Source: Datnioides undecimradiatus
Lineage: Eukaryota; Chordata; Actinopteri; Lobotiformes; Datnioididae
Assembly: GCA_008933995.1 (NCBI GenBank)
Contig: WARS01000025.1
Span: 5,067,477-5,131,476, forward strand
DNA length: 64,000 nt
Direction: 5' to 3'
Position 1 is the first letter of the stretch, and the number at the start of each line of letters is the position of its first letter. This document shows positions 32,745-59,218 of the stretch, in pieces. The notes beneath the pieces are model-generated. The model was not told the DNA's origin. It made no database searches and worked only from the letters and a program-made list of their open reading frames with translations. Made by a program: the position numbers and the translations under genes.

Positions 32745-33933
32745 GTAAGCTTGGTTTCTAGAAGGCAAAGACATTGATGCATCTAGATCACAATGTTGGT
32801 AATTTGGTAGATGTTTATTTTGCAAGTTTAGTGAATGGGTTTTATCTATATGGAAGCATGGATCATGCATATATCACTTGCACCCCACGTCGTGCCCCAA
32901 GGTGAGGTCAAGAAGCTTTGACCATTGCACAGTGAGAAGGCAGAAGCACTTCTCTCAAAACAGGTGTGTCGGCTCTGTCTTTGATGTGCAGCCATTTATG
33001 GAAAAAGCGTGGCCTACCCAAAATGAGTTCCAGACAAACGTGGATTGCATCAAGAATTTAAACAAGCCCCAGATGTCAGTATAGAGGATCATGTAGAGAT
33101 GGGTTGACAGAAGATGGCAGAGCTGACTTCAGATTTTGTTTTTTGTATCTTTTTTGCTTTTGGACTTCACTGTTCCATAGCATCTAATGCATTCCAACTT
33201 TTTTATCTGACTTTTTCTCCTTGACACCTGTCAAGGGCATAAGACATATGAGTTTGTTTGCATGCATCATTGTCTTTGCTGTAGAGCCTACTGAACAGTT
33301 TGCATTTTGCAACTGACATGCAAAGTCCAAACGCCCAAGCTTTAAGTTTGTCCTAATGCAATTAAGTTGACCTGGCTCTGGATCCTGTCTTTGGAGATTT
33401 ACCTGTCATTGGCAGGCAAAGCAGTGACCTGGAGAGAGCAGCTTACCTTGCTGTGTTGGCAGCTGCCAGTGGAATTTGACTGTAATGACATTAGTGGTAT
33501 AGTAGGCTACATACGCTGATGGTGGATAATTTGGGCTAGAGTTTTAACGAGTGTGCATTTATGTCTCTTAGTCAGCTGATTCATTTGTATTTAATGCCAG
33601 CCATGTGAGCTGCAGTATTTCAAGTGACTGAATTTGGGATTTCAAGAGTGTGAAAGGCCTAACTAAGACGTTTGTTGATATTGAATAATTAAATAGACAC
33701 AGGGGCTCAAATGCAAACAGTCGTATTGGTCATCAGTACTGTGTTCCTAATTCCTCAAAGTCCCCAGTCTGTTGCAAATTATAACATCTTATCCTTTTTA
33801 TCTTGGATGTCTAAGGCGTTGTAACGTTTCTTTTACTATTCCATTATAAGGCCTGTGTAACTCTGTTTAGTCCATTACACAGTTGTCTGTAAAACTATTT
33901 TGTCTTCATTTTCATCACAGGTTTGGCAGCAAA

Positions 33934-35051
33934 ATGGCACTTCTCCTAAGCCTCCTCTGCATCTTGTGTCTGGTCGGGCCAGTTCTCAGCCAGGACATCC
34001 CTTATGAGGAATTCATAGCCCAGATTCAAGCATGTCCTAAGGAGTGTCGCTGCCCCCCCAACTTCCCTCGTGCTGTCTACTGTGACAATAAAGGCCTCAC
34101 AAGCATTCCCAATATTCCTCCTTACACATGGTACCTCTACCTGCAGAACAATCTTATTGAAGTGCTGTCAGCAGATGCCCTGCGTAATGCCACCTCACTG
34201 CGCTGGATTAATCTGAACCACAATAAAATCACGAGTGAAGGAGTGGAAGCAGGCGTCTTAGGTGCAATGCCTCACCTGGCGCACCTCTACATGGATGACA
34301 ACCTCTTATCTTCTGTGCCATCTCCCCTGCCAGCCAGCCTAGAGCATCTACGTCTGTCTCGCAATCGCATATCCAAGATCCCTGCTGGTGTCTTCATTGG
34401 TTTGGATAAGCTTAACCTTTTGGACCTCCAGGGGAACAAGCTGATGGATGATGCTGTGACTGAGGTGAGCCTGAAGGGTCTAAACAACCTGGTGCAGATC
34501 AATCTAGCCAAAAACCAGCTGAGTAGCATGCCTATTGGCTTACCACCCACCACCACCCAACTTTTCCTCGATGGCAACAACATTGAGAAGATCCCAGCAG
34601 GCTACTTCAAAGGTTTGCCAAAAGTGGCCTTTCTGAGGCTCAACCACAACAAGCTTGGCAGCAGTGGAGTTCCCAAAAATGTGTTTAATGTCTCCAGCAT
34701 TTTGGACTTGCAGTTGTCCCACAACCAGCTGACTGAGGTTCCCCTCATTCCCTCAGGCCTTGAGCACCTTCACCTTGACCACAACAATATCAAAAGTGAG
34801 TTTGTAATTCATTAGAGCTGTGAAGTCATAAAAGTATTAATTTTAACATTAATAACTTTAACCTCCTTTGTATATTTACAGGTGTAAGTGGCTCCAACGT
34901 CTGTCCTGTCGCTGTCGATTCTGTGGACGAGTCGGTCAATGAAAGTGTTCCCCGACTGCGCTACCTTAGACTAGATGGCAATGAGATTAAGCCACCAATT
35001 CCCAGGGACATCATTCTGTGTTTCCGTCTCTTGAGGTCCATTGTCATCTAA
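33934..35051 (+). CDS. kera: Keratocan (complete, 343 aa, two coding exons)
   Basis: Class II keratan sulfate SLRP, mainly of corneal stroma, where it sets collagen spacing. Exons: 33934-34795 (phase 1 donor GTGAGT) and 34882-35051. The total of 1032 bp gives 343 residues, near the 352 of human. The upstream in-frame ATG at 33883 precedes a good acceptor (TTTCATCACAG, 33910-33920), so the ATG at 33934, inside the exon, is chosen. It yields the signal peptide MALLLSLLCILCLVGPVLS. Then come one probable sulfotyrosine (Y24) in an acidic stretch, the class II Cys motif C34-x3-C-x-C-x9-C50, LRRs (YLYLQNNLIEVL, LQLSHNQLTEVP) and the terminal Cys pair (NVCPV and ILCFRL). The ending YLRLDGNEIKPPIP is characteristic of keratocan. 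Sequons: NAT, NVS, NES. Confidence 0.97.
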
Positions 35052-37572: not shown

Positions 37573-40185
37573 GTAAGCGTTCTTGGTGCTATCTATCACG
37601 CTGGCTCAGTGGCTCTCTGGTGCAAGGGATTAGGCAGGCAGAGGGGCTTGACTTGCCCCTCCAAAAACACTGCAACTCAGGGTTTGCACAGGAGCCACTT
37701 GGCTAATTGGTTGGTGGTGCAGCTGCTTTATTTTTCGCTCAGGGATTTGCTTTGGGAGATTTGCAGGTGCCTGAAATGTGAAAGTCGTTGTGGTCCTTTG
37801 GCATTCTTAGAGGTTGTGATAGGTTGGCCAACACTCCTTTTAAGCTTCTGTAGATGTAATTCAGGCGTGAGTGTTCAACAGGTGTTTTTTTGATTGGCAA
37901 CACCCTTGGTGATACTAACTGATTTTGCAGTTTTGACAGGTGCAGCATTGTTTTCTTTTGATAGAACATGAAATGAAGCAAGATGAATTTTGCCTCCAGA
38001 GATTTCACTTTTTTGTTCAGATCTGAAAAAAACCCTCCCTCCCATTTCAAAAACTGTGAAGAAAATCTTTTTTCTGTCAATACCATTTTAAGACATTTTC
38101 TGTCAGAATAGAATTAAATGCATATGTAATTGCTCTTAAATTTTCTGTCACCTACTTGATTGAGGATTTCATTTGTGGAACAAACGTACAAGTTTGTTCT
38201 GCAACTTGTTGCAAAGGGACTTCTGTCAAGTTTGTATGGCTTTTGAGGGAAAAAAGGTAGAATCACTAGATATCAGGAATGCCCAATCCGGAGCCAAGCA
38301 TAACACAGAGGTAGTCTAGAGGCTATACTCATACACACATACACAGTTTCCACACACTGTACACTGTGATGGCCTGTATAAAAGCACACCTCTGTCTTTA
38401 GTATAGCCCCTCTTTCAGTGTAACTATGCTGGATTTCATAGCCTCATGACAGAAAGTCTGTTTCAGCAGGGATGCTAACCAGTCACCTTTTCTCAAAGGT
38501 GCACTCTATCTTGGACATTGTCAAGAGAAACTGATTTGCATAATTAGTGTAATCCCTCTGATATCAACAAAGAATAGATTCATGACTTAAACAGCTTGTT
38601 AAATTGTCTTTTTTTATTTTATATCTGTCCTCGTCCCAAAAATAGCAGCAGAGGTTTCTCAATTTTCGCTCTCTGAATGATACATGTGTTAAGACAGTGT
38701 GCATCTGTGAGAGGATATGCCTTTCCAAGAGTGTGAGTGTGCGTGCGTGAATGTGTATGTGTGTGTGTGTGTTTGACTGCTGAATGAAGCTTTTCCTTGC
38801 AGCCGTAACTCACTGCCATCCTGTCCACAAACCTCGGAGGAATTTGGAGTTTGAGTGCTGAGACAGGCAGCGACCGGGTCTCATAAAGACCCTCTGTAAA
38901 GGGTGAGGGGTCGAGTTAGCTTAGGAACCTGTCTGTCTCTTTCTCTCTCTCTTTCTCTCACTTGCTCTGCTCTCTTCCCCACTCAGTATTTCTCTCACTC
39001 TCTCCATCTAACCCTGAGGGCCAACATCTTGTCCACATCTCTCTCCATCTCACTCTTTTCTTCTCTCTTCTCATTCCCTTGCTCTCCATTTCTCTGCCCC
39101 GGCCTAGAGGACTCCCTTTAAACTCTTCTGCCTTTTCTTGGACATGACATCTTTTATCTTAGACCAGCTGAGACATGGCTACACCTGCTATTAGTGTGCT
39201 TTGAAATTCCCAACTGACAAATGATTGATTGATATACCTAAGCAGTAATTAACATATGCTAATCTTATTAGCGCTTCAGGGATTCACACTTATGAATCAA
39301 CCTCACTAAGCTTAGCAGATCTGTGCTGCTGAGCAAATGAACAAGATTATGAACAGCAGTGATCTAGGTCAGGGCAGTGCATAGTGAATCTGCACTCAGT
39401 GAAAATCATACATGCTAATTTTAGATTCATGTAGAAAAGGGACCCTCTTGTCTGAACCCTCATTTCAAGACTGTTGCCAAGATTTTTTCTGCCAAAGCGT
39501 TTTTGGTGTGATTTGGGAAAATAACAGGAGCCCCAGCCAAAAACACAGGAATTCAAATGTAGCTTTAACAGTGTTTTATTGGAAAAGAAGCAAACCAAAG
39601 CCCGTCTCATTTAAATACATTTAAAGCCGTCCAGCCCAAAAACCCTAAAAGCTGAAAGAAGATTATTATAGGTGCTAAGCCCTTCAGTCTGGAGGAAAAG
39701 TTCTCATGGCTCCTTATCAGATCAACTCTGACTTCTGACCTTTGACATGCCACAGGTGAGCACTGATTTGAGCCAAGATGGCTGCTCCCCGGAACAGTGA
39801 ACCCCTGGCTACACTGAGGCAAGAGGCCCTCATATTTCACCCATTCTAGCTGTCTGCACCTCCGTAATGAATTCACTGACCTTAGTGATGTGGCCCGAAG
39901 TCAGGCCTTGGTCTGGTAGAAATGTACACTGGTCAAGTCCAATATCATGAAGATGTGACTTGTTGAAGGTCACCTATGTGAAACTATATTTTAATACTTT
40001 GCTCTTAATACACAGCATATTTAAGACAGTTTCCAGTTTAACATTTGGCAAGTAACATGATATAAATGACAACAAATCACAAATAGAACAAGAGAAAACT
40101 CACCTTATGAGAGTTGCGATGGTATGTTATTCGTCTACAAATGGACATTCCCATTTTGATTTTACATCTTTCTGTCCATGTTAAG
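37573..40185 (+). other. Probable 5' intron of epiphycan
   Basis: No coding exon. Contains a (TG)n run at 38756-38772 and a CT-rich tract at 38935-39100. This is intronic if the candidate 5' exon is right, otherwise promoter-proximal intergenic DNA. Confidence 0.4.
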
Positions 40186-40192
40186 GTGGACG

Positions 40193-43100
40193 ATGAGGAT
40201 GCTTGTGCGGTTCGTGTTGGGACTCTTCGTCCTCAAATCAGTGGTTGCCAGCCCCAGATTTTCCCGACAAGTGGACTTGGACACATACAACAGTGCCAAC
40301 TATGACGTGGATCTAGACAATTTAAATTCGGAGAACCAGGACATCTATGACTACGAAGATGGGCTAGTAATTGATGACCCTCAGGTAAGAAACTGTGTCG
40401 GTCAGTCAGTAAGCACATGACAACATGTTTTGCCAAAACAGTCAAAATACCATCCAAATACATGGTATGAATTGCATAATGCAATTATTCTCAGGGATCA
40501 TGATAAAATATATTTACCTCCTCTTCTTCACCCCCTGCAGTTACTGTAATTCATAGTTTGTATTTGATCACCTTTAATTTGCAGTTCAAGTAAACTAGCT
40601 CATGGCAGATTGCTATTTGTGCTTCTTACTGGAAAGTCAGAATCAGTTGAGTGATTTAACGTGGTCTGTTTGGTGTTGTTCAGTGCATCATGTACAGCTA
40701 AACAACACTTTAACGTTTAGATGTAACGCTCATGTTACTGATGGGACATTGAGTGATCGCTAGAAAACTTGCGGAGATAGACAATAAATACGAATGATGT
40801 CACATCAACGTGATATACAACTCCCATTTTAAAGCATGCAGGCTGTTCCCAGAAGTCCTGGTTTTCTTCACATTACACAAATCACAGTGGTGACAGTGTA
40901 TTTTTTGTCAAGTGGCTGGTTTTGAACTGAGGTCACCAGGTTCATGGAGCAGACAGACATCCTGCTGATACCAACTGCGACCATTTTGAAAATGGAAGAA
41001 CAGCGCTCCAGCTTCATGCACTATTGTGGCCAAAATATTTCACTTTTATAACTTGGCCAGTCACCATTTAAGTTACATGCCCTTGCATCTCTACAGGCTA
41101 AACTCTTCTGCATCTGGAGTAATTTTCGACATGGAAAATCAAAAAATATTTATGCTCAAGTCATGTATTGAGAAAGGAACAGCTTTTCATTATACAGTCA
41201 CTGAACATTTTGGATATTTTTTATTTTAGTGTGCAATTGCAGAATTTGTAGCAACAGCAAAAATCCAGGAAACACAGACAAAATATTCTGTGTCCTCTTG
41301 CACTAATGGGATGATTTCAAGTGTTAACCTGCTGTTATTTTTTTTTTTATCAAAATTTGCTAAGCAGATTAAAAAAGCTGATGTAAAATCAGCCAAATTA
41401 ACTTCTGTTTTCATTCTACACAAACTCATCCAAGCACGACAGCTTTTAAAAGATAAGTGGAGAACAGAGGCAGAAAGGGTTACAAACTGAATGATGGATT
41501 CCAGAAGATCCTTTAAATCAGCTCAAGTTGAGTGTGATGTGGCAAGTCTGCAGGGCATGCTAGCATGGCACTCTTTTGTGAAATTTCATGTTCCCAGTTA
41601 GACCTCTTTGTTACAAGGAAATTAAGCCAAGGCAGTGTCAAGACGGCACGAGGAAAATCATCCACGTCGGATTTTCAACAGGCTTCTCTGGAGCCAGCGA
41701 TTTAAGCTGAACCCGATGTGGACTGCACTCACACCACTGCTGTTATCTAAGACCAAACCCACAATCAAATGCAGATTTAGCAGATCGGACAAGATGTAGT
41801 AGAAGAAACAATATAAAGCAATGATTTATTTTGTCATACGCTGTTGCAAAAAGGTACAGCCTTTTGCTTAAATTCAAAGTGACCGAGTTCTGGTGTGCAA
41901 ACCTTTACAGTTGAGTGTTACACATGACAGTGCTCAGTGTGGGAAAGTTATAATGTGTTGCAGGCGAATGGCTTTGATACTGTCTCTCTGTTTAACAAGC
42001 CTGGATATGACACAGCACATTGCATAAGATTTTGTGGGAGTCTGTGGCAGCAGGAAGAAGAGAGACAGAACAATTAGAGTTACAAGAATTTTTCTGGTCC
42101 TGAATAAACATGAACTTTTGGTTTGCAGCATTGGACGTTAAATAAATAGCCTACTGTAAGGTTGTGTGTTTTTGTTTTGTTGACAGTTAAAGGTGAGAGG
42201 CAGGTCCTCGGATAGACTGGTTTCTTAAAAGGGGTATGGATTTTATGCATACACACACTCGTCAGATGTCAGCAGAGAAGAGGAGCGATGATGAGCTCCA
42301 TGCCTCTGGAATGCTGACTCTTTGCTTTCCACATCCATCTGTTGGTATTTCTCTTCTTTTTCCTCAGGGCTTGTCTCTTTTCAGAGAAGTAAAGGCTCAT
42401 CTTCACTGTCATCCAAGCAAATCATCTGCTGCTCTTAGAAGTCTTTGCAAATGCTTTAACCACTGATTTTTTTAGGTTCATTTAAGCATTTCTTTAGCCT
42501 CACTTTCGATTCGTCTTTCATCATGTTGTCTTGAGTCAAATTTTGGGAACAAGTTGCTTGAGTGAATTGCAGCTGGAGATCAAAATGTTTAGCTTTATTT
42601 GTGCAAGGGCTGCGAGAAATAACATTTACACATGTATGATATACATTGCAATTCCGTTGTTTAGACTGTGTCAAAGAAATTACTTCAAGTATTAAACTCA
42701 GTCATTTCTGAAAGTGTTGTTTGTGCTGCTGTTGCAAGTATTTTGTCAGCCTCCTCTAGCACTTCATTTGTTCCACTTGGAAAACGTAATGTATATGTCT
42801 CACTCTAATTCAGTTATTTGTATCTTAAACCTCTAAATCTCTAATCTCTATCTGTCTCAAACATACACGAAATTCTTTCTGTTTATTTCAGTGTTAGATG
42901 AAGATCAACACCACTTTCATGAGTGTGTGTTAAACGTGAAGCTACAGTCAGCAGCCAGTTAACTTAGCTTAGCATAAACAGTGAAAAACTGCCATCCACG
43001 CCCTTCCTAAAGGTAACAAAATCTGCCTACCAGAGACTCCAAAGACCACTAATCAATGCAAAATATCTAATTTGATAAATACCAAGAGTGTAAAAACTAA

Positions 43101-46100
43101 TGCCCTGTGGTTTAACTGGTGGTTATGTGTTGAACTGTTTCTTGGTACGGTGCAGCAACTTCCTGGAGTTTTGCTGCCTCTGCAGGGTTGCCAAGCAACC
43201 AGCAAAGATTCTTACTGTGAGTAAGCTTATTTCTCAAAATGTTGAACTTTTCCTTTAAGCTCCACAGTGCAGATATTCTGTTGGCATTCACTCTGAGCCG
43301 GAGAGCCTCATAAATGTGACTCACAGTTTACCACACGGCATTTCATTGCACTCATGAATGATTATGAATTAACTGTGGTATTCTAGAGCTGCACATTTAT
43401 TTCTGTTGATCGATGCTTCAGCAAATCATTCTGTTATTTTGTTTGTCGTGAAGAACGCAGCTGGTGAATCAGTGCGAAGTTGTTTAGCAAAGATTATTTA
43501 AGCATATCTAGCTAAAACTTGTTGAATGCATCTACTGATTGACGTACTATGTACTACAGCCGCAACATAGCATTTGGTGCAGTCTTGGTGCTCACACTCA
43601 ACGTGTCTACCGTGCATTCTGTATTCCCATGCTGTTTTCAGAGCATTTTTTTCAGTATTTTTGGTTGCCAGCCTTTCGCCTCTTCTTTTCCCTCGGGTGT
43701 ATATGTTTGCTTTGGGGAAAGGGGGAAATGAAGGGGAGAGCTGCAGTGAGCTAACTCTGTGCAAGACTTTTCAATGGCCCACCTTGTTGTATCCCAAACT
43801 GTGTCTCTGCCAAGCTATAAAATGTGACTTTTAGTGCTGGACATCTCTCCATTGCTGCATTTAATGTCCCTGCATGTTTTTTAGTCAGTTATCTTTCTTG
43901 TAACCTACAACTTAAAGGCTGTGCTTAGTTTGACTTGGATGACTGTACTGATATGCATTCATTTTTAATACCTCTGGCTTGTTGACATACGATTACTGTG
44001 GTTGAAAGTAGCTGAAAAGACTAAAATATGGATTCTTGCAGCTACCATGTGAGTCTTGGTTCCACAAGGACCATTCCCTTTTTGGAGGGTTGAGTCAGCC
44101 TTGATGGGCGTGAGAGAGTGTCAGGTATTACCTGTGGCAGTGAGTGGGGGTTCATTGCCCTCATCTGGAGAATGATAGAACTGCAGGTTTGATCAAAAAC
44201 CAAAACATCAAAGAGTATCAGCAATCACTGCAAATGCAATTATAATACCAGATGGATATACCGGAAGCGTTAAATGAGGGAACCAAAAAGCACTGTAATT
44301 CGTGAAGCATGTTCGGTTCAGCAGAGTTATCTTTTAATTTATTTCCAAATGTAAAACGTAAATTCTGGTTGACTTGATAAACACTGGCGCTAAGGCTATG
44401 TTTATAGTCATTTGATATTTTGAAATGTGTAGAAGAGACTTTGTGCACTATAGACCTCTCTGCAGTTTGTCTAGTTTATCAAAGGCCTTCATAAACTACA
44501 ACCAGCATTTAGCACAGTGCCCAAGATGTTTAAGTAGATATTTCAAATATACAATGTTTCTTCACATATTGGAATGATTTGAAAACGTTCACAAAAAAAT
44601 TCAAAGTAAAGGATGGAAGTTGGATTGATCAAAAACTTTTCCCTGTCCTCACACAAAAGTGATTTGTAAGCATCCCACCATCACTAATCAGTTCATAACC
44701 ACAAGCACAATGTTAGAACTGAACCCATGTAATCTTCTTCTGCAAATCTGTGATCACTGAAAGCATTTTATATACATATGAATATTCAGAAAACTATTGC
44801 TATTGGTTAGTGGCAAGTAAAAAAAGTACATCACTGCATTAACCAGCTGGATTTTCTGCTACAAAAATGTCACTGTTCTTTAACAGACGTTGCATTTGAG
44901 TGGTCATTGCCATGTGCATGCCTAAATCAGGACCCTTTGCTGCCATCTAGTGGTAAAGATGATGGAAATAGCGTTACAGAGAGTAAAAGGAAAGTGAGTG
45001 GTCATGAAAAACAACTCAGACATTCACTACTTGAATCTAACACTTTTCTGTGAAAGGAATTTAATAAAATGAAAGAAACTTTAACCTACCTTGGGTCCAT
45101 CAATGCATTCCTCTTTTTACATATCCTCTTTTGGTCTATAAGATCACCAGCAAGCAGGCTGACGTCTGCCCAAAGCTGTCAGATTATTTCTTTTAGTCCA
45201 CTAGATCACTGCCTCAATTACATCTACACGGATGGAAGTTGTGTGATGAAATCAATACCTTTGCAACAGACGGACAAAACAGCAAATTTGGTTTGTGTTT
45301 AAGTATGTTAAAAATGTTGTTAACATTACAATTACTGTTGAAGCCATGGTTGGTAATAGATTTAACAAGTTGTAAAACATTTCAGTTTTCCTATTTTATG
45401 TCATGTCATGTCATGTTGTGTCATGTTATGGTGCTTGGTACTTCCTGCTACACAGCAAAGTACCAAGCACCTTTTCATTGAGTGATCATACATTTTGCAT
45501 AACTTAGTATACTATGCTATGACTATATACTGTACCGACATAAAGTCAGTGGAATAAGGGAGTGATAGTCATCAGACCATTTGTTGAAGCGGCATCTTAG
45601 AATTTCGAAAAAACCTTTAAAAAGCAAAAGCCTTGCCACGTATTTCCCTTGTGTATAAATATACTAGAGTAAAGTTTGTCTAGTTAAAATCAGCAAAAAT
45701 GGATTCAACAAACAGCCTTTGAGTCTAGTGTTTACTGTCACTAAAACATTACGTCATACTAAATATTCCCTTTCTGATGCTTGAGTTCAGGTCAAATTCT
45801 CATTCATTTTTGACTCACTGCTGCTGTCTTTTCCTCAGATAGAGATTGGAACGGTGGCCCCACCTGATTATATCTACCCTGTCCCCGAGGTCTCATTGGA
45901 AGAACAAGAACAAGAAGAGGAGGAGGAGATGCCCCTAAAACCCCAGCCCATCCCTCAGGGATCAGGGGGATCTGGGGTTCTCATGGGTCCAGACACACAG
46001 AAAGGTCTGAAAAGGCACATAGCTTAAGGTCTGCACACCTTAGGCTTAACACAGGGCAACTTTAATTAGGTTCACTTGGTTTATGGGAGGGCCATGCTAT

Positions 46101-49100
46101 TCTTTGGGCCTGTGGAATAAAAGCAGTGTCACCAATGATGACGAAAACATCCAACCAAAAGATGCACTAATCTATTCCCTATAATCATCAATGGTATCTT
46201 CAATAATCACCTTTTCTTTGTGCATGTCTTCCATTTAACTAGCTGTTATTGGTTAAATGTGTCATTTTCAGTCACTGTGTCCATTTGTCATCTAATTCAA
46301 CTTAACCTAATCATGATTGTAAGCTCCAAACCTGATTGATCTGTTTCAGTTTCATCTGTCTGTCTATTAATACCTCATCTTGTCTCTAACAAGAGGTGGA
46401 GCTGCGTCTGATGCCCATTGACATCCTTCATGTCTCCGGGGATTTTGGGGGCTCCGTAGGGTCTGGGGCCTCAGGAGCTTCTGGGGGTTCTGGGTCTGGA
46501 GGCTCGGGAGACCTGCTGGTCTCTGGCGGCTCTGGGGGTTCTGGAGACATTATTTTGATCTCTGGAGCCTCTGAGGAGCTCCTGAGCTCCGGGGGATCTG
46601 GGGAATACTTGGTATCAGGGGATCTTTTGATATCTGGGGATCCCTCGATATCTGGGGATTTCTTGATATCAGGGGATCTCTCAGGATCTGGGGATATAAT
46701 GGGATCTGCAACTTCTGGAGCCTCTGGGGACCTTGGCTCTGGAGGAATTTCCATTGAATTCCCCCTGGGCTCTGGAGGGTCTGGAGACCAGTCTGGTTCT
46801 GGGTTCTCTGGAGATCTCTTGATCTCAGGGGCCTCTGGAAGCTCTGGGGTTTCTGGGGACTCTGGTGAGTCCGGGGACTCAGGGATAACATTGATATCTG
46901 GAGGTTAGTACTTTTCAAGAGCTGGTGCCTTTTGGTAAGGCTAGTGGCAACTCTATTTCTTGACCTGTGCAGCAAGAACCTGTCTTACTCTATGTGATTT
47001 ATGTTGATTTATTGTCCTAAATTCCATTTAACAGTGTTAAATGTTGATTTGTTTTTGGTTATAATTTTACTTATTTGTTCTACTACGTGTTATTGTATTT
47101 GTGTTACTCATAATCATACCTTTCCTAACCTCCTGTGTCATCTAAAATGTGAGTGTGATTGATTGGTTGATGGGCTGATTGATTGTTCATCTCACCCCTT
47201 ACCCTTCTATAATCTCATGTCTCCTAACCCCCAACCCTTGGCTCTAACAAGAGGAGGAGCTGCCCCTCATTACCGAGACCATCCCCAGTGAGGCATCAGG
47301 TGCTTCTGGGGAGTTCTCAGGAGTTTCAGGAACCTCAGGGGCCTCTGGGGATCTTGGTGTCTCTGGAGACTTAGGGTTGTCTGGAGCCTCTGGGGCTTCT
47401 GGTGTCTCTGGCTCTGGAGACGCAGAGGTCCCTGTAACTCTGATCCCTGACACTGATGAAGGTCAGTATCTAGTCTAGACTATGAGATTAAAGGCAGGTT
47501 AAAAACCTGAGTCCATATCTCAAACACCAGAAAGTATACCAAAAGTCAATACTTTGAACAAGGTGCCAGTACCAATGCCAGACCAAGGAGTCCATAAATC
47601 TTTTATGATGTGGAACTTGTTAGTTTTGTCAGCTACCTATTGCAAATCAGCTTTGATAACTTTGGTTTCCTCTTCCCCATCTTCAATATCACTGCTTACT
47701 TGGTTTGAAACCAGCAACTTTAATGGTTTGCTGTGGACTTTGAACACCAGTAGTGCTATGAACTGTGTTATTATTAGTGGGTTCCTGTTTGTGATGGTTG
47801 ATTGGTGACAGCATGGCACAAAGCACAGCAATGCATCAGGAAAGACACTGATACCCGTGAAGATATGGGGATATAATGGGATCTGCTTCTGGGCCCTCGT
47901 GTTAAAAAGAAGTTGTGTATCTCCTTCTGGTCAGTGTGGGCTTTTCTTTTACCCATGCATCTATAACCCCTGCCAGGCATTTGTTGCAAATAGCTGTACA
48001 AAACTCACACCGTAGTGCAAATTTTGGATGCGCTGTAATACATCTCTAGAGAAAGTTCAAAAAACTTGAATAATATTAGCATATCCCACATGTTTTAAAT
48101 GTAAAATGTTAAATTTGAAAAAAGTCCTTATTTTTTAACAGTGCAAGATTTATTGTAAGGACTGACCCCAGCACTGGCACCTTGTCTTCAGAAAGTGGAG
48201 GATAACTTCAGATAATAATTTCAGATATTCGCTATTCTCATATAACTGCCTACGGTGGTTATTTAGTCTTATAGCCCACCACTGAGGCACGTAAAACTCT
48301 AAAGCCAAGCAAAATTGCTTTTTTATTTTTGGTCATATTAAATGTCATTAACACCAAAAATATTTTCATTCAACTTCAAATCATCAGTTAAATGCTTTAA
48401 GCATTTCGTTAACACTTCTAATATACTGTATGTAACTTATCACTGCGGCAAATAGTGACCTACTGTTTGCCAGACTTCCTGTTTCAGGTCCATGTTGATC
48501 TAACCTGTTTCTTTAACACCTAATCTTGTCTCTAACAAGAGGAGGGGCTGCTTCCAACCACACCAGAAACCCCTCAGGAGGGTACTGGCACTGTAGAAGG
48601 GTCGGTAAGCTCTGGATTGCCAGAGTCTGGTGAACCTGATGAGCCTGATGAGCCTAAGGTTGACTGGGGAGGTCAGTATTGAACAACAAAGGCAGTGAAT
48701 TCAGAGAATAATTAAAAAAATAAAAAATAAAAATTCAGTTGTCATTGGTACTTGTGATATCCTAAATCCCCACTTGATTGACCAGAATTAGGAATTGAGA
48801 TTCTTAGAGACTCCATCAATCCTCCAAAATGTGGTCTACCTCTCATTTTCATTTTTTTCCCACCTTCCCTCCCCTTGTCTCCTGTTCTTCACCATGTGCT
48901 CCAGGTATGCCCACTTGCTTGCTGTGCACGTGCCTTGGTGGTTCGGTCTACTGTGACGACTTGAAGCTGGATAGTGTACCACCTCTTCCCAAAGACACCA
49001 CTCACTTCTACGCCCGCTACAACAGAATCACCAAGATCAACAAGTCCGACTTCGCCTTCATGAGTATGTTTTCCATTTTCAAGAAAATGAATAAATGTTA

Positions 49101-51061
49101 AATCCGGAAACTAAATGTAAAAAGCTGATTGTCAATGATTTTTCAATACTTTCAATTTTGATATGGGTGACATCAACGGCATCTGCTTGGATATTCAGGA
49201 TTATGCCTTATACCAATTATAGCATTTCCAATTAAGACAATGAAATATAATGAAAGACTTGGATATCAACAAGGTTTTTATACATGCATAAATATTGCAA
49301 CACTAACCTTTTCAAGAAGATGGTTGAAAAAATGAAAGATGGAAACATTTAGTGTAAATCAGACTATGCGCATTTTCATTTCCCCAGTAATCAACTTTAT
49401 AAAGTCTCAAATGAAGTAAAGACACTGATATCAGCAGTTCAGATTTGGTTTTGTGCCTCCTTTCAGACAAGCTGAAGAGGATCGACTTGACCGCCAACGA
49501 GATAGCATCCATCGACGAAAAAGCATTTTTGGGTCTGCCTGAGCTGGAGGAGCTGGTGGTTCGAGAAAATCACATCTCACAGCTGCCCGCTCTCCCAGAG
49601 ACCATGATACTCATCGATGCCAGCCATAACAACATTGGCTCCAAGGGTATCCACAAAGAGGCTTTCAAAGTATGTACACGTCCCATGTTTACAATAACAT
49701 GCTCAACACCAACGATAAATAAAAGTGTATACATATTGGTCGATATTAGCTTGTTTCTGAACTTACTGTCATCAGATCATTGTCAAGTTTATTGACATAT
49801 CTTCACAAATCTTAGAAAAAACAATTTATAAAATGTTTGTTCTATTTATGCAAAAAAAAAAGTCCATAATCAGAGTTTATAAATGCTTGTACATCAATCC
49901 AGTATCAGTCCAGCTCACTCAAACGCAATATAGTGCTCCTTCAGTGTTTATATGCTTATAATACTGGACTGCACATGTCTGTTTTCTTTTTATAGAACTT
50001 CACAAAGTTAGTACCTTAAGAATGTGTTGGGATTCGCTCAATGTTTCTGTCACAATAATGATATCACAAGCTCTGAGCTAATAAAGATTTCCCTGATTTC
50101 AGGATATGACTAGCCTGCTGTACCTGTACCTAACAGACAACCACGTTGATTACATCCCTGTGCCTCTACCAGACAGCCTGCGATCTCTACACCTACAGGT
50201 AAATCTGCTCTGGCCTCATGTTTTCACTCCCCAGGACCAAAAAAGTGGTACAGTTCAGACACAATGCATTCTTGGGGACTGAAACTCTTTAAACTTCTGC
50301 GTTGATATAAAATTAATGGAACAATAAACGAACAATAAACTTTGCTCTGATTAGACCTTCACTCCTTGCAAAGTGGGTTGTGGTAGGCTGACATTGCATG
50401 ATTACTAACCAATAAGAATGAGAAAGGTCTAACTTCTCCAACCCAACAGGTGCAACAAATAGAACCTAAAAAAATGCCAACAACATCCTGACAAGTAGTC
50501 TACTTAAGCATAGTAATTCAAAACACCTGTGTGTGAGGACTAGGCGAGTCAAGAGCAAACCCTTAAGAGACAACTAGGAAATAAATAGTTTTTTTTATGG
50601 CATATAAATCAAATGATCTTACCAAATCTACTTTTTAAGGTTTTGTTTTCAACAAATTGAATAAATAATGTTACAAATAATTTTATATTTCAGAATTAAG
50701 TCAAAGACTAACATTCAAAAAAATGTTCAGTGTTGTTTGATACCTTCATGGATGACTTACAGATCTTTTCACTGATATGATTACTGCACTGCCTGCAATA
50801 ATCCAATTTCTCCACCATTAAGATTAGTTTAATCAAAGACTAATATGCATGGAGCACTCATTGTTTATCCTCCTCTCATTTCGGTCACAGCGTAACAATA
50901 TTCAGATGATGCATGAGGACACGTTCTGCAACCTGAAAGACTTCAACTACATCAGGAACGCACTGGAGGACATCCGTCTGGACGGCAACCCCATCAACCT
51001 CAGCAGGACCCCGCAGGCCTACATCTGCCTGCCCCGTATACCCATCGGGGATCTCATTTAA
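40193..51061 (+). CDS. epyc: Epiphycan with expanded Ser-Gly region (complete, ~612 aa, nine coding exons)
   Basis: Class III SLRP (dermatan sulfate proteoglycan 3, PG-Lb) of cartilage matrix. Exons: 40193-40384, 45839-46004, 46394-46903, 47252-47461, 48540-48671, 48905-49063, 49467-49669, 50103-50198 and 50891-51061. All junctions are GT-AG and in phase, and the 1839 bp are open throughout. Residues 1-20 are a signal peptide. Residues 21-64 are acidic with several Tyr (DIYDYEDG), and residues 65-119 include a Glu run. Residues 120-403 form the Ser-Gly region from three extra phase 1-1 exons. The Cys motif C408-x2-C-x-C-x6-C420 is that of class III. LRRs and the C-terminal ALEDIRLDGNPINLS ear follow, with Cys in TFCN and YICLP. 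The last five exons match mammalian epiphycan closely. Mammalian epiphycan is about 322 aa, so this protein is nearly double. MRM gives two adjacent start choices; the first is used. Opticin is a relative, but synteny with kera identifies epyc. Confidence 0.93.
40915..40985 (-). mobile_element. tRNA-derived SINE fragment
   Basis: Read on the minus strand it has an A-box-like TGGTATCAGCAGG and a B-box-like AGTTCAAAACC at tRNA-like spacing. On the plus strand it ends CCAACTGCGACCATTTT, like the reversed head of common tRNA-derived SINEs of fish. Family not determined. Confidence 0.45.
42893..43256. mobile_element. Teleost interspersed repeat (MITE-like)
   Basis: From memory of teleost genomes, the stretch matches a very common non-autonomous repeat. 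Recognisable words are GTGAAGCTACAGTCAGCAGC, TTAGCTTAGCATAAA, AAAGGTAACAAAATCTGCC, GGTTATGTGTTGAACT and the end CTCAAAATGTTGAACTTTTC. The copy is degenerate and codes for nothing. Confidence 0.6.
44940..44953 (-). promoter_or_regulatory. CTCF-like motif in epiphycan intron
   Basis: On the minus strand CCACTAGATGGCAG fits the CTCF core consensus closely. Motif match only. Confidence 0.4.
45430..45471. repeat. Hairpin with 14-bp arms
   Basis: GGTGCTTGGTACTT and its exact reverse complement are separated by 14 nt. A degenerate ATGTC pentamer repeat (about 45398-45428) precedes it. Confidence 0.85.
46394..46903 (+). CDS. epyc: Epiphycan exon 3: long Ser-Gly repeat exon (170 codons)
   Basis: Phase 1-1 exon, 510 bp, acceptor TCTAACAAG, donor G|GTTAGT. 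It begins EVELRLMPIDIL and then runs as about 35 Ser-Gly dipeptides with Asp, Glu and hydrophobic spacers (GSGSGGSGDLLVSGGSG and similar). SG next to acidic residues is the acceptor signal for xylosyltransferase, so many serines could carry chondroitin or dermatan sulfate. An 18-bp unit coding (I/V)SGD-x-x repeats five times at 46612-46701. A consensus donor TCTG|GTGAGT inside the exon (GT at 46865) is in the same phase and would remove 39 bp in frame. The antisense ORFs here are by-products of the repeat. Confidence 0.88.
47252..47461 (+). CDS. epyc: Epiphycan exon 4: Ser-Gly exon (70 codons)
   Basis: Phase 1-1 exon of 210 bp, acceptor GCTCTAACAAG, donor G|GTCAGT. It begins EEELPLITETIP and contains about 12 SG dipeptides (ASGASGEFSGVSGTSGASG). 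The first 15 bp and the acceptor match exons 3 and 5, indicating exon duplication. Confidence 0.88.
47862..47900 (+). pseudogene. Decayed fragment of an epiphycan Ser-Gly exon
   Basis: GATATGGGGATATAATGGGA, followed by TCTGCTTCTGG, matches exon 3 at about 46688-46720 with only small changes. It lies in the intron between exons 4 and 5. It has no usable frame or splice sites and looks like a relic of an extra exon copy. Confidence 0.6.
48540..48671 (+). CDS. epyc: Epiphycan exon 5: acidic/Pro-rich exon (44 codons)
   Basis: Phase 1-1 exon of 132 bp, acceptor CTTGTCTCTAACAAG, donor G|GTCAGT. It begins EEGLLPTTPETPQ and has two SG dipeptides and an EPDEPDEP run. It shares its acceptor and 5' end with exons 3 and 4 but lacks the long SG repeat. 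Confidence 0.85.
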
Positions 51062-52010
51062 CCACACAGACACATACCTTCACTCTTGCACAATGAGTCC
51101 CACAAATGCAACCACATGCACACATCTTTGTACATATTCTCACACACACACACACAGACACACATCACACATGCAGACATGCATACCAATTATCAGCTCT
51201 TCAAACAATTAATTAATTACAATAATGTTATTCAAAACTGTCAGAAATGCTGCTGATGTATACAACAGATCAGTAAAACTTTGTGTGAATGTTTGTTTCT
51301 TAAACATCCACAATCACATAAATTATGAGTCAGATTCTGGTGATCAAGCACATAGACACTGCTCTACTTCAAACTCTTCCGTGTTTCTGTTTGCCGGGTA
51401 AACAACACACAAACAAACTACACACTGAGAAACTGTAACTGTCTCTTTCCCTCAGCAGCCAAAATGCATGCACACACATAAAAATACACACACATTCACA
51501 CAAGAACTTTCTCAAAAGCCAAACTCTTCCACAACTTGATTAAGAGTAAACAACAGGTGGCATTTGGAGAAATCAATTTATTAAAAAACCCTCAAATGGC
51601 ATGTATGTTTCTGTTCAGTGTCTGTTCATGTCTGGCAAGAAGAAAAAAACAACCAGTGATATTGTTTAAATATGTTTGTTTTGTAAAAATAAAAAATAAT
51701 ATTAATATTAATGACAAATCTAACACTTTTGGAAATGTATACTAGCATAAACCTATTGAAGCTGGAGCTTAATGAAAGGTAAATTGAGTATCTAATGCAA
51801 TAAAAGTCGCATTTAAACACAATCATTTGTTGTAAAGTCTGTACTGTAATATAAAAATATATATTCTTTAAAAAAAAGATTTTTTACATGAACTGCAATA
51901 TTTGGTATATTACATTTCACAAAGTGATGTTTTAACCATGCACAATAGCATATACCAAAGACTCTAATGTCTAGAGTCGATCAAATAAAGACTATTGTTT
52001 GATTTGGGAG
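51062..52010 (+). other. Epiphycan 3' UTR with candidate poly(A) signals
   Basis: Starts with CA-rich sequence (51130-51180). AATAAA occurs at 51799-51804 and at 51984-51989. The latter is followed by a strong G/T-rich stretch (GGGAGGGGGGTTGTTGATTT), so it is the better end. Another AATAAA is at 52098. Confidence 0.45.
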
Positions 52011-52103
52011 GGGGGTTGTTGATTTTGATTGTGGATGGGGTAAAGAATAATGCTTACAGGTTGCTATTGTGTGCTCTGTATGGAATAACCACAAGTGAAT
52101 AAA

Positions 52104-54600
52104 GTTGTTTTGAAGACCTCTCCGAACTAGGAGTGGCTCAACGTTTTCATTGACAACTTACAGGTCAGTATATGATGTGCATGTTGATTTATGTGCCAAT
52201 GCAGCCAAAATTGCTTTATAAATATTTTTAAAAATGTGTTTCTCCTGGGGAAGTTTTGTGCTGAAAAAAATTCCACAAACCAAAAATTTTCAATGAGTTT
52301 TTCAAACAATTTAACTGAAGCCCAAGACTGTCACATTGTTGCCACCTACCTCCTCGGTCCTTTCTTTGCCAGCCTCTTCCAGCTCACAGCATCTCTGTCC
52401 CTCTCCATCATCTCTCTCCCTGTCTCCATTAATGTCTCAGTCCAGCAGTGCTGCCTATCCAGCAATGATCTGTCCCTTTGCAGTACCAGCCGCTCCCTTT
52501 CAATCACCTGTCCTTCGCCAGCCATCATATTCCTCTTTCTATCAATCTCCTGGCGTCCCTCCTGCACCAACTCCACCTCTCTCCTCTTCTCTGTTCAGGG
52601 ATACCTCAATCTCTGGCCTGTCTGACAACAAAGCCACACCGGGGTCTATTACCATGGACATCTTCCTCTTCTTTGCCTTGGAGATGGGTAAGAAATTGCC
52701 ATTGTCTTTGTCGTTGGGGAAGGCCTTAATGACAGAGGCACTGTAACACAGTGTCGTCTGTCAGACTGAAATAAGGCCACACTTCTGCAAACACTTGCAC
52801 CCCATCTGGAGGGTCATATCACCTTCAACCTTGTCTTTGTGGTTTCCCATTTTGTGGAAGCTTGACTATGGTTCACCTTGTGCTGCAAGCCCATATGCTT
52901 CAGGATGGACCTGAAAAGGTAAGTATCTTAAGCACTCAAAACATAACGGCTGAAATAATGCATAAGTCAAAATATGAAGCAAGTCATTAGTTTCAGCTTC
53001 TCAAATGTGACTAATTACAAACTATAGTCGACATATCCATATCCGGCATTTTTCATTCCAATCTAGCAGGAGCTGTCAGGATTTAAACGGCTGATCAGTC
53101 AGATCGGTGGTCCTTGATTGAACACAATAAAAATCTTTAGCCATTCAAATACTTGCGCATGGTGAGCAAAATTGTAAACCATTAAAATAAGAGAAAATAA
53201 ATGCAAAATCTAAATGGTGAATATCAGTCATGGCACTTATCCTTTTTTCTATTAATGGACTGCAATGCACTGAATAATTGGTCCCTTTTAAATTCAGAAG
53301 AGAAACAAAAAACATCTTCTTATTCAGCCAGCTCAGCTTTTAACATGAACTTTCTAACAGGTGTCAGGTCACAACTATTAGTTATCTTGGTGCCTGTAGC
53401 TTCTTAGAGCGTATAAGTTAACATGGAGACAAAAATGACACATAACCATACAACCGACATTTCCAGTAGAGGCCGGTCGAAATGTGGGTCAACTGTGTTT
53501 ACCTGTTATTGTTAAATGAAAGCGTGCTTGTTGTACTTTCACCCTGGAGCCCACTTGCTAGGCATCCTAGCTAACTCCAGTTAGCTAGGCTGACTTAGAT
53601 TTAACATTTTGTGTTGCCTAAATTTACATTAATTCGTGAACTCAACAGTTCAACTTTTGTCCTAGGTTTTAGCCTTTATATTTAGTGCTTTTCGTAGAAA
53701 ATGACTACTCAGTCGTTGCTCAATCACACAGACCCTAACTGCCAATGCTCCTTCACATTCTTCGTCGTCATCGTCTTCTTCCCCTGCTTTAAGTGCCACT
53801 TATCAAAGTGGAGGCGCCCGTCAATGGCGCAATTAGCGCACTTTCGCCACTCAGCGTTTGGGAGGCTTAGTACACTAAACGATAACGCCTCTAAGGCGAA
53901 TACAAAACAGATTTCAAAATATTGCAATCGTGATCATAAAATGTGTGTATTACTTCCTGATGTTATATATTTTTGGCCATATAATTTATTATTTTACCTA
54001 TATTTTATTTCATTTTATTTTACTAATTATTGATTTGTATGAAGCAATGTAGCCTTCACATGTACGTTCCTCCTGGTCCAATGATAAATCAAGCCTTCCT
54101 TTACATCAAATGGGCTGGATGTAAACCTTTCTTGGTATTTATGTGGATGTTACTTTGATATGTACCACATATTATTGCAAACAAAGCACGTCTCTCAACG
54201 GGTTTTTTTTTTTCCTTTCAGCAGGATAATCTAGCCTAGCAAACCCACAATAGATCTCTTGCAGGGCATATGGGATCTGTAAAAGTGCTCCTTATTGAAA
54301 TAAATTCTTATGCATGATTGATTTTTATTATTTTTTGCCATTTATATGCTATGTCACTTTGCTGTGTGCTCGTTTTTAAAATATTTTAATGTTAACACCT
54401 TAACTGGGAAAAGTTGCATGATTTATTACATGGATATCTTTAGGGGTTGCCCTATTTATTGCAGCTATGGCACATTTAAGCCTATTGTTGCACGTGAAAG
54501 TATGTCTTAGTAAATATGCTCTTGCATTAATAGTGAATTTGTGTTCGCACAAAGAGCAAGAGGCAGCCTCCTGGCAAGCAACCTGTGGGCGTGTCTGGAT
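52104..54600. other. Region between epiphycan and the CCCH-WWE gene
   Basis: No gene I can support. Two stretches look exon-like but code for nothing known. The first is 52599-52687, between a CT-rich tract ending TGTTCAG and GAGATGG|GTAAGAA. The second ends at CCTGAAAAG|GTAAGT (52919). They could belong to an untranslated spliced RNA. A minus-strand ORF at 53724-53927 has no recognised domain. Confidence 0.45.
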
Positions 54601-54632
54601 TATTAATAAAAATAAAAGTAAGGGATGAAGAT

Positions 54633-54644
54633 GAAAACGAAAGT
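54633..54644 (+). promoter_or_regulatory. ISRE-like motif at the start of the CCCH-WWE gene
   Basis: GAAAACGAAAGT fits the GAAANNGAAA core bound by IRF/ISGF3 factors. It lies 18 bp before the start codon and about 25 bp after an AT-rich TATA-like stretch (ATTAATAAAAATAAAA). Role inferred from motif and position. Confidence 0.5.
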
Positions 54645-54662
54645 AGAACCGCAAACTACAGA

Positions 54663-57600
54663 ATGGCGTCTGGCAGAAGTGAGTATCCTCTTAACGTCAA
54701 TCTTCAATCTCGTCAATTTATATTTATGTTTGTCTTTATAGTATTTATCTGGAGTGTCAATTATGTTGTAACTACAGATGTATGAGACATGTATGTGACC
54801 TGTGTATATGTCTGTATACGTTTACATTAGGCATTTAGCGTTATACACGTCGATGTCAGTCAAAAACTCCATACGATTATTGGGAAAAGTTTAAATAAAT
54901 TAAAATGTAAACTAGTGTTAGTGGGAACAACGTTGGAAATGTTGGAAAAGTCTGAACTTTTAGGTGCACGGATTTATCATTTATCACGTTAAGAACTTGA
55001 AAGCATAAAGTTTCAGTTTCCTTTTCCGCGGAGATCCCTCCTTCACCGGATGTACTGCAACATGCAAACCTGTATTTTATAAATGCCTTACTTTTTACGT
55101 GCCTCACATCAGTGTCTCACTTATACAGCGTCGATCGAGGGCTTATTATCTACTTTTTATTCATCTATTTAACTATTTTGATAGATCATTGCCTTTTAGT
55201 TCACGACTTGTAACTTTATTCGCCAGCAGAGGACAGCAGATGAACATATATTTAGATATAGGTTACCATCACTAACGCACACTGACACTTTTTCCTTTGT
55301 GCCAGAATTTTTTACATCACATGGTATTTTATTTAAACATTTAATATTAAACTTAATTGTGTTTTTAGTCTTTGGTTTTTAGTAAATAAAATGTATTTAC
55401 AGGCATGAAATCCCTACAGGATTATGATACATGAAACATTGTGCCTCTATATACAGTATGTCACTATATTACTCTTCTTTAGTCATTCATAGATTGTTTT
55501 TGTTATTATATTTTGACTTATTTTCCTCCCAGAGTCTGATGAAGAAAACCACTCTGAAAGTGAATCTGACGTCAGTGATGAGTCGGACAGCGATGTATAC
55601 TCCGATGTAGATTGTCAGGTTTGTTTATCTTTTGAAAAACCTAATTCAACGCAGTTAGTCTCATCATTTTTTCAGAGCTAATGAGAGTTTTTCTGCATTT
55701 TGTCTTTCAACTGTCATTGGTCATAACTAAATCAAACTAAATCTTTATTTTCATTTCAAGGATAATGAGACAGAACCCTGTAAGTTTTACAACAGTGGTC
55801 GCTGTCGGGACGGTAACAGATGCTCTTACTTGCACGTCTGCAAGTATGCACTGAAAGGAAACTGTCGCTATGGGTCTAAATGTAAGCTGAACCACACCAT
55901 CAGAGGACAGGCAGCATCTGGTGCAAGCAACACGGCTTCGACATCCAGAGATGAGGAAGAGGAACAGACACAAGGTTGAATGGCCAGATTTTCTTTCTGA
56001 CGCACATTTTCATTTCAGAAACATTAACACTTTCAAAAACTCCTCAACCTATTACACTCAATATGCATACACCTAATTTTAAGTATAAGCATATTATTTA
56101 AGTACTTAATTTATTTTTTGCACTGCTTCTTCTGTTTGCTCAGTATATACGGATCCAGCTGCATGTCTGTCTTTCAAGTTATTCCATCAGAGAACAATGT
56201 GTCCCTTGACCCATATGAACCTGACTTTGACTAACTAGTCAAACTAGTTAGTTAAAGTCATAGAGGCAAAAATGTAGGTACGAGTTTTGAGGCTATTATT
56301 GTAGCAAAACTATGTACGAAAATGAAGATACATCTGTATGTACATGCACAGATCTGTAAATGTGCATGAAGATCTGAAAATGCATGTGGAGTTTGCAACT
56401 TCTGCTACACTAATAGTCCCAGAAAGAACATTCTCTTCTATAGTAAAAAAAGGGGTTAACTCCGAGGTTTGTGCATAAGACAAACGTTAATTAAATAATT
56501 TTGAAAGTCTTTAACTTATTTATAAAACCAAATGACTTCAAATTTATATTCTGTATGTGCTGGTAACCTGCTGGTCAGGTACAAATATCATAGTTGCCTG
56601 TTTAAGCATCCAATATGGAGCAATGTTAGCATTTAGCATAACATATTTTAAATTTGATGTTAGCTCATGTCAGTTTTTCAGACCTTGTCAGCTGAGAGTC
56701 TGTGGAACTGAAAAAAGAAAACAATGGGCTAAAAGAGGCTAAAAGGCTCAGTAAACTTGAAGGAATGTAGTTTTTTTTAGGTTTTTCACTCAACCCCATT
56801 TCATGTACATGATGATCCATTATTGATATACAGATGTTGATTTGTAAACTTTTAAAGCCCCTTAACAATAAAATAAAAACCTTGTTTAGTGTTGTTTAGT
56901 GCCTGAGTTGGTCGATGTAAATTTAAAACTCTGTATTTTGTCTTTTTTTATCCAGACCCAAAGCTTACTGATGGCAGATACTACCAGTGGCAGTTGAATG
57001 ATGGAGATACCTGGCTGGATGTTGATAATGATCACATTATCGAGGCCCAGTACTCACTGCCCCACACCAAGGGGATTACAATCTACAACACACCATATGG
57101 GTAAGAGCTAAAGACACATAGTGCATCAGTGCATTTTCTAAGTGGAGATGGACAGAAACGGGTCAATGATTTACTTATGATTCACTTACTAGCTCTCTCT
57201 CTCCTTCTAGGGCAGTGCGTATACATTTTAACAGGATGAAGGTGTGTGGAAAGAGTCTGAAAGTGAGACGTTTGGATGATGGAAACAGTGTGTGGACCTG
57301 GTACTGCACCCTGCGTCGTAAGTGGAACAAGTATGGAGACAAGGTACATGGAGCCAAACAATTGAACCTTTCCTTTGTGAGCAAATATGTTCCCAACTTG
57401 AATGTAATTTAGATGTGACAAAAGCAAAAGTCTGTTTAGGTTTCCTCATCTTTATAGTCAGCATATATATATATATATACTTACACACATATATATGTTT
57501 GGACAGGATTCAAAGGGAAACTCCAGTCCTGTGACGAGCTCTGACATAGAGAACAAGTTCCAGAGTAACCCAACAAGCAGTTATACTTTCAGCATCGGTG

Positions 57601-59218
57601 CTGAGACCTTTGAGATTCGATTTAAAGGTAAAGTATGCTCACAATAACCATAATAAATTTCATATGCTACTTTGCTCTCAGATACCAGTTTATATTTGTT
57701 TTTGTTGTTTGCTAGAAATGCGACAGGTGGGTAAAAACAGAAGAAGGAGAGTGGTTCGTCGCCCACTTTACCGACAACAGCAAGCAAGAGCCAGGTGAGT
57801 TTTAGGGTTTTTTTGTGGATTCAGTCAGAAACAAAGATATGAAAATGATTTAAAGAAAAAAAAAAAAAGACCAATAAGTTGTATCAAGTGACGGGTAGGG
57901 TCAGTACATTTTGTATGTTGTTTGATGGAATAATTTGACATGCAACAACTCTGCATGAAGGATGACAACTGATACTACAACGTGAAGTTAGATCCACCAG
58001 CACGTTAGCTTGCCTAGCATTAAAACTAGAAAAGGGGAAACTGTCACTGTCACTAGAGTCTTTACTGCAAACCACAAGGGTCCATGTCCATCCACCCCAC
58101 AAGTTTATCAATCAATAACAAAGACAGGGGAAACCATGAGAAAGTTAAAAAAAAAAAAAAACATAAAAAAAATTAAAAAGTCTCAACCTGAATTCAAATT
58201 GTTCTTTTTTGGTGTAGTTTAGCTTAACCATCTTCCTCAACACCGAGCCAAATAAAAAGGTAAATTAGCCCTAAATTTAACTGAAGAGGGGAAACAGCTT
58301 GCTGTTGTTGTTGAGTTAGCTTTTAGATGCAAGTAGGCAGGTTTTTACCATGTTTGCACAGAGACAGAGAATCCTATTTTGTCAGTTGTCTGTAGTCTAT
58401 GATAAGCTAAGATGCAGCTGCATATGGAGCAAGCAGATGTGAAAGTGGTATCAGTCGTATCAATCTTCTTATCCAACGCTTTGCAAGTGAGTGAATAATT
58501 CACAGTAATGTTGAATTGTTCCGTTTTAAATGTTGTAAAAGAGTTTGATGATTTGATGTTTGCTGTTGCAGTGTTGCTCAAGCAGCCTCAGCTCTGCAGA
58601 ACCTCTCTGTGGACACCAAACCACAGTGGCAGTTTGAGGGAGACGGTGGAGCGTGGCACAACTTCAGACACAGTGTAAGTTATTAGCAGCGTGCAGGTTA
58701 GCTGAGAAGGTTCATTTTTCTTTTAATAATAGTGCTAAGATAAAACCATGGTTATCTGAATGGCTTCTTTTCAGCAAAGTGACTGCTCGGTAACCAACGA
58801 AGACATCGAGAGGAAGTACCAGAAGAACCGTAACGACACCATGTCGTTTAAAGTGAAGGGACAACCCTACAAGTTAGATTTTGGAGGTAGAGTTATGTTT
58901 TTAATACTGTGCATGAGAGAAAATGTTGACCTGTATTAACCTGTAAACCCTAGAATGTATATTAAGATGTCTGACTTTACATATAAATAATGACTTTCTG
59001 AAACTCCCCAACCTATTACACTCAATATGTATGTATGTACTTCAACATGAAGTATTACAGAGAATCTAACATGATTCTCAGCCATAATAAACTGCAGCCT
59101 CCTTTAATAGTTACGCTGATACATGACATTTACTCATTTGTTCTCTTTTCCCACAGCGATGAAACAAACCAACCTCAAAACCAAGCATTCACGCCGGATC
59201 AGGCGTGTGCTGGTATGA
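54663..59218 (+). CDS. CCCH zinc-finger / triple-WWE protein, PARP12/ZAP-like without PARP domain (356 aa)
   Basis: Exons: 54663-54678, 55533-55618, 55761-55974, 56956-57100, 57211-57343, 57507-57627, 57716-57794, 58572-58674, 58775-58886 and 59157-59218. All are GT-AG, in phase and sum to 1071 bp. Residues 7-33 are an acidic Ser/Asp stretch. Two C-x7-C-x5-C-x3-H zinc fingers lie at 41-59 and 61-79. Three WWE domains follow at about 112-178 (YYQWQL, TWLDV), 178-246 (WTWYCTLRRKW) and 280-345 (PQWQFEGDGGAWHNF, DIERKYQ). Basic linkers (RRRRVVRR, RRIRR) come after the second and third. CCCH plus WWE pairs are the central poly(ADP-ribose)-binding module of ZAP (ZC3HAV1) and PARP12. Here the ORF stops right after the third linker, with no catalytic domain, recalling the short ZAP isoform. 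An RNA- or PAR-binding antiviral role is inferred. No more exact orthologue is claimed. Confidence 0.82.
55009..55021 (-). promoter_or_regulatory. Consensus ISRE in intron 1 of the CCCH-WWE gene
   Basis: AGTTTCAGTTTCC on the plus strand is an exact match to the ISRE consensus AGTTTCNNTTTCC, followed by a further TTTTCC. It sits 330 bp inside the first intron. Function inferred. Confidence 0.5.
55221..55238 (+). promoter_or_regulatory. CTCF-like motif in intron 1
   Basis: CGCCAGCAGAGGACAGCA matches the CTCF core except for an A where G is preferred. Motif match only. Confidence 0.3.
56222..56260. repeat. Hairpin with 17-bp arms
   Basis: TGACTTTGACTAACTAG and CTAGTTAGTTAAAGTCA pair with one G-T wobble around a 5-nt loop, in the intron before the first WWE exon. 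Confidence 0.85.
57464..57498. repeat. (AT)n-rich microsatellite
   Basis: Alternating AT run with a short CA interruption, 9 bp before the exon at 57507. It lies in the polypyrimidine-tract position, which is unusual for an acceptor (GTTTGGACAG). Confidence 0.8.
57960..58330. mobile_element. Possible degenerate GCTA-rich teleost repeat
   Basis: Words such as GTTAGCTTGCCTAGCAT and GGGGAAAC-GCT resemble the repeat at 42893-43256 in part, but order and spacing are poorly kept. Located in a 777-bp intron of the CCCH-WWE gene. Confidence 0.3.

Follow-up and report, generated by a model that had tools for sequence, protein, structure and literature searches.

We find that the window, i.e., the whole analysed stretch of 64,000 nt from Datnioides undecimradiatus (contig WARS01000025.1), carries an intact epiphycan gene (epyc) in which three extra exons encode a dense array of Ser-Gly (SG) dipeptides. 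As judged from the sequence, the likeliest reading, and one that we consider probable, is a cassette-spliced SG array that adds glycosaminoglycan (GAG) chains to an otherwise nearly bare leucine-rich repeat (LRR) protein. Mammalian epiphycan has few GAG sites. If chains are attached, an SLRP with few mammalian sites would become a multi-chain proteoglycan in this fish with a site number open to splicing control, and the gene would allow one to test directly how the mechanics of notochord sheath and cartilage change with the number of chains on a collagen-associated core. It would also illustrate how a proteoglycan can acquire attachment sites by simple means, namely by duplicating an exon and lengthening it through in-frame repeats.

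For ray-finned fish, Zhou et al. 2006 described long splice variants of epiphycan (as related in PMC7310474). That is, longer spliced forms are already on record and the finding is less new than the preliminary description of this DNA had held. Within the accessible parts of the open-licence literature searched, we found no report that the added segment forms a Ser-Gly array or that it arose through exon duplication. The detail added here to the known long fish epiphycan is the likely exon-duplication origin and a putative exon relic.

Gene structure, identity and locus

The epyc gene spans nine coding exons (40178-51061, plus strand) and encodes 617 aa; without the three extra exons, 333 aa are left. 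All introns are GT-AG and the phases are consistent. We reject a pseudogene, since the frame is intact across the nine exons. Exon 1, for which the preliminary description gave no position, is placed here at 40178-40384. The coding exons are listed in the following (a slash marks the exon border).

40178-40384, plus strand: epyc coding exon 1; start codon, signal peptide and tyrosine/acid-rich N-terminus; 69 codons, donor CAG/gtaaga, phase 0
45839-46004, plus strand: epyc coding exon 2; acidic, rich in E, with QGSGGSGVLMGPDTQK at its end; 2 SG; the duplicated exons apparently stem from it
46394-46903, plus strand: extra exon 3; 510 bp, 170 codons, 35 SG, phase 1-1; 9- and 18-bp tandem units
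47252-47461, plus strand: extra exon 4; 210 bp, 70 codons, 12 SG, phase 1-1
48540-48671, plus strand: extra exon 5; 132 bp, 44 codons, 2 SG, acidic DEPDEP tail, phase 1-1
48905-49063, plus strand: epyc exon 6; holds the Cx2CxCx6C cluster, and the LRR domain starts here; the PDB opticin match begins at residue 409
49467-49669, plus strand: epyc exon 7; LRRs
50103-50198, plus strand: epyc exon 8; LRRs
50891-51061, plus strand: epyc exon 9; C-terminal LRRs and stop codon

The assignment to epiphycan made earlier is borne out by the cysteine cluster, the opticin-like LRR match and the position within the gene cluster. The N-terminal cysteine cluster of class III SLRPs is present in exon 6 (CLLCTCLGGSVYC) and follows the pattern Cx2CxCx6C that is named for the OGN/OPTC/EPYC clade (PMC6293640). 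A class III LRR domain is present as well; its best match among PDB chains is opticin (9wxp, E 5.9e-72, residues 409-615). With regard to Pfam models, LRR_8 scores above its cut-off while LRRNT reaches 22.2 bits, i.e., stays under its cut-off of 25.8. PMC7310474 gives N-terminal tyrosines that are followed by an acidic residue (+1) as an epiphycan feature. By local sequence context, an acidic +1 residue is found here at Y42 (NYDV) as well as at Y57 and Y59 (IYDYED), and Y37 (TYNS) is without one.

Upstream of epyc, LRR open reading frames (ORFs) are located at 21860-22798 and 33871-34815, which we take to be lumican and keratocan. The window hence carries a lum-kera-epyc cluster, the order of which fits cluster C of PMC11917481, where epyc is placed in a dcn-lum-kera-epyc cluster and optc in another one.

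A second contig of the assembly (C471) holds a copy of window positions 38720-58523 that is 99.9% identical; over 19.8 kb, the two differ by five substitutions and by two small gaps. The copy is identical across the extra exons 3-5, and the sole difference within the epyc coding exons (at 40354) is silent. It appears that the assembly contains the epyc region as two near-identical haplotigs. An error of one contig is unlikely given that the copy agrees over the three exons, though both contigs may share the same reads.

Ser-Gly content and probable coding constraint

Exons 3-5 add 284 residues with 49 SG (35+12+2) and exon 2 contributes two more, which gives 51 in total. When the residues of the insert are shuffled (10,000 shuffles), on average 14.3 and at most 27 SG are obtained vs. 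49 observed. Neighboring SG are most often 3 residues apart (23/48 gaps) and 2 residues apart in 4/48. With 46 D+E, only 2 K+R, no Cys and one Trp, the insert is acidic; 21/49 SG are SGD or SGE, and for 41/49 a D/E is found at most four residues away. The preliminary description had reported three extra exons with 284 residues and about 50 SG, many of them beside Asp or Glu, in the range 46394 to 48671. Both outer limits are exact, the count resolves to 49 plus the 2 of exon 2, and the acidic neighborhood is reflected in the fractions above. Likewise, the open frame, the splice sites and the phases it had described are intact through exons 3-5, the splice sites being GT-AG.

On the minus strand, positions 46428-46904 form a Pro/Glu-rich open frame of 158 codons antisense to exon 3. 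We do not take it as a gene, since it follows from the TCTGGG repeat.

With regard to selection on the peptide, we rely on a single test, which is based on the in-frame hexamers one step away from TCTGGG. For 28/30 of these, the change is a silent one in third position, whereas an even model predicts 1/3 (p 9e-12); the individual copies are not independent due to tandem copying. If only distinct hexamer variants are considered, 5/6 silent types vs. 2/12 non-silent types are present (p 0.013). The mostly silent variation at SG codon pairs suggests that the array is translated under constraint.

The remaining statistics are mixed. A protein-guided codon comparison, which by its method leans toward silent change, shows 16/9/33 mismatches at codon positions 1/2/3 for exons 3/4 and 9/9/20 for exons 4/5. 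On ungapped diagonals (13/16/19 mismatches within exon 3, 7/5/8 for exons 2/4), a third-position excess is not clear. The GC content by codon position is 0.62/0.59/0.48 in the SG exons vs. 0.51/0.33/0.70 in the LRR exons, i.e., the high third-position GC is absent in the former. All of the 51 SG serines use TCN codons; mixed TCN/AGY usage, which would be a stronger proof of selection, is not seen. Finally, an open frame throughout exon 3 occurs in 21 of 5000 first-order Markov sequences, such that the frame of this exon alone is only modestly unlikely by chance.

These data bear on a neutral reading, namely that the extra exons are repeat-derived, rarely spliced in and functionless, i.e., an exonised minisatellite. 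The TRF arrays of 9/18-bp units, the differing codon-position GC, the AAG acceptors and a decayed exon relic in an intron (see below for both) are compatible with it. We nevertheless consider it very improbable in view of the silent-site pattern, the three splice-site pairs with matching phases around 852 bp that contain no stop, and the long fish variants that have been published (PMC7310474).

Origin of the extra exons

We compared the region 45700-49100 with itself. Positions 46340-46408 match 48484-48554 with 76% identity, where 54 bp of the match are intronic. Further matches relate 46361-46576 to 47218-47428 (65%) and 47218-47384 to 48506-48667 (61%). Exons 3-5 share the acceptor ctctaacaag/AGGNGGNGCTGC as well as the donor G/gtYagta. 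In addition, 45915-45988 of exon 2 matches 47246-47324 of exon 4 with 73% identity, although this match sits in GAG- and TCTGGG-rich DNA, the low complexity of which could mimic descent. The case for duplication is thus firmer for exons 3-5 with their flanks than for the step from exon 2 to exon 4.

Given these matches, the extra exons are likeliest to be duplicates made inside epiphycan, with part of exon 2 as the source. The preliminary description had suggested an inserted serglycin-like domain. This view is not supported, since the exons match one another, the intronic acceptor included, and also epiphycan's own exon 2; that is, they look like internal duplicates and we set a captured serglycin domain aside. 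Judged from the comparison of the epiphycan exons among themselves, the likeness to serglycin is probably convergent.

The duplication may have proceeded as follows. Part of exon 2, in which acidic residues precede SG, would have been duplicated in tandem, where an AG inside the GAA/GAG run of exon 2 would have become the new acceptor (a step that builds on the low-complexity match). Later copies would have taken the acceptor sequence along. Subsequently, the exon copies would have expanded internally by 9-/18-bp (3-/6-residue) repeats with the frame kept; the tandem units found by TRF in the array are 9 and 18 bp long. The new acceptor may derive from the AG-rich DNA at 45900-45928. Within exon 2, this same segment (AAGAAC plus GAG runs) encodes the acidic EQEQEEEEE tract.

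The intron that separates exon 4 from exon 5 holds a further trace of exon-3-like DNA.

47862-47898, plus strand: relic of exon-3-like DNA; shares GATATAATGGGATCTGC

The relic is 85% identical over 40 columns to 46685-46724 of exon 3. Its ungapped score is 23, whereas 100 dinucleotide shuffles reach 16 at most and the other epyc introns (6/7 scored) give 9-12. We read it as a putative lost or unfinished Ser-Gly exon that has decayed. Since such a relic remains, exon copies seem to be both gained and lost.

Predicted splicing and chain attachment, and known systems

Each of the extra exons has phase 1-1; therefore, the frame is kept in all 8 possible combinations, which contain 2 to 51 SG. Their acceptors are AAG while those of the other five epyc exons are CAG, and AAG acceptors may be what is expected of optional exons. 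If spliced in, the exons would give the secreted protein an SG-dense arm, acidic and disordered, that separates the LRR domain from the tyrosine-rich N-terminus. On a fraction of the arm's serines, xylosyltransferase would start GAG chains, which would give a multi-chain matrix proteoglycan held by the LRR domain. If skipped, a roughly mammal-sized and almost chain-free form would result. A more specific version is possible but put forward tentatively, i.e., a splice-tuned, 'part-time' proteoglycan, in which three frame-neutral cassettes, derived from one exon and still turning over, would set the number of GAG sites anywhere from 2 (a bare binder) to 51 (a bottlebrush).

Next to the chain-bearing array, we considered that the SG array is made with few or no chains and serves as a flexible acidic spacer, or as a Fam20C-phosphorylated segment, that leads from the N-terminus to the LRR domain. 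The insert contains 7 S-x-E motifs, S-x-E being the Fam20C motif. Chain occupancy may be low because D/E at -1 to -4 is present for just 20/49 SG and SGxG for 4/49. For SULF1, no chondroitin sulfate (CS; PMC13405426, preprint) was obtained when Ser-Gly lacked an acidic cluster, and for this reason many of the 49 positions may be unoccupied. On the other hand, 14/49 SG do have a D/E at -3/-4, and the mostly silent SG variation points to a constraint on the dipeptide itself, beyond flexibility alone. Overall, we regard a spacer with few chains as unlikely.

The chains that are expected from a glycanated array may be CS/dermatan sulfate (DS) or heparan sulfate (HS); acidic residues lie mostly C-terminal of Ser-Gly. 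Xylosyltransferases act on Ser-Gly within unstructured regions, where acidic residues C-terminal of Ser-Gly favor EXTL3/HS (PMC10570366). Highly sulfated CS is associated with acidic residues on the N-terminal side of the site (PMC10424144). An array with HS instead of, or beside, CS/DS might store growth factors in the notochord sheath. It would agree with the D/E at +2 to +5 in 34/49 SG and with the report that repetitive Ser-Gly favors HS (PMC4598785, citing Zhang 1995). Yet CS sites carry acidic residues too and multiple Ser-Gly are no bar to CS initiation (PMC10570366), the insert has a single Trp, and epiphycan is classed as a DS/CS proteoglycan in a review (PMC12730261). Overall, we regard HS on the array in such a role as rather improbable.

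The cartilage or notochord setting that had been proposed earlier agrees with zebrafish data, where epyc is expressed in both, i.e., at 36 hpf weakly in notochord and strongly in parachordal cartilage (PMC10665197). Among the tissues listed for catshark, epyc peaks in vertebrae (PMC11917481), and chondroitin sulfate is present around the zebrafish notochord from 3 dpf (PMC3698701). Against the chain-bearing reading, the main text of a zebrafish glycopeptide study mentions neither 'epyc' nor 'epiphycan' (PMC7758351). The same holds for 'epyc' and 'dspg3' in the main text of a zebrafish skeletal proteome, which reports nearly the whole small leucine-rich family (PMC3946537). Fish studies that keep short epiphycan isoforms only may omit the putative glycan-bearing part.

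Mammalian epiphycan (EPYC, PG-Lb) has a signal peptide, a tyrosine/acid-rich N-terminus, a GVL-GP segment and a class III LRR domain, all of which are shared by the fish gene. It differs in size and SG content, i.e., about 322 aa with about two SG in mammals compared to 617 aa, 51 SG and three extra exons in the fish, while the 333-aa fish form without these exons is near the mammalian length. Serglycin resembles the array by its dense Ser-Gly tract, which is expected to bear many chains. In contrast to serglycin, the fish array looks exon 2-derived, is joined to an LRR domain and has no long SGSGSG run. The CS domains of aggrecan are likewise repeats with Ser-Gly in a core protein of the cartilage matrix; the fish insert is far shorter (284 aa) and its gene model is without a hyaluronan-binding or lectin domain.

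Among the PDB chain sequences, opticin is the one that the LRR domain matches best, but the fish gene adjoins lumican- and keratocan-like ORFs, which corresponds to the epyc cluster and not to the optc cluster (PMC11917481). Finally, the long epiphycan variants of fish (zebrafish dspg3l; Zhou, Shirabe and Kuwada 2006, via PMC7310474) concern the same gene in the same animal group and are lengthened by splicing; the genomic sequence studied here has symmetric extra N-terminal coding exons that may be alternatively spliced.
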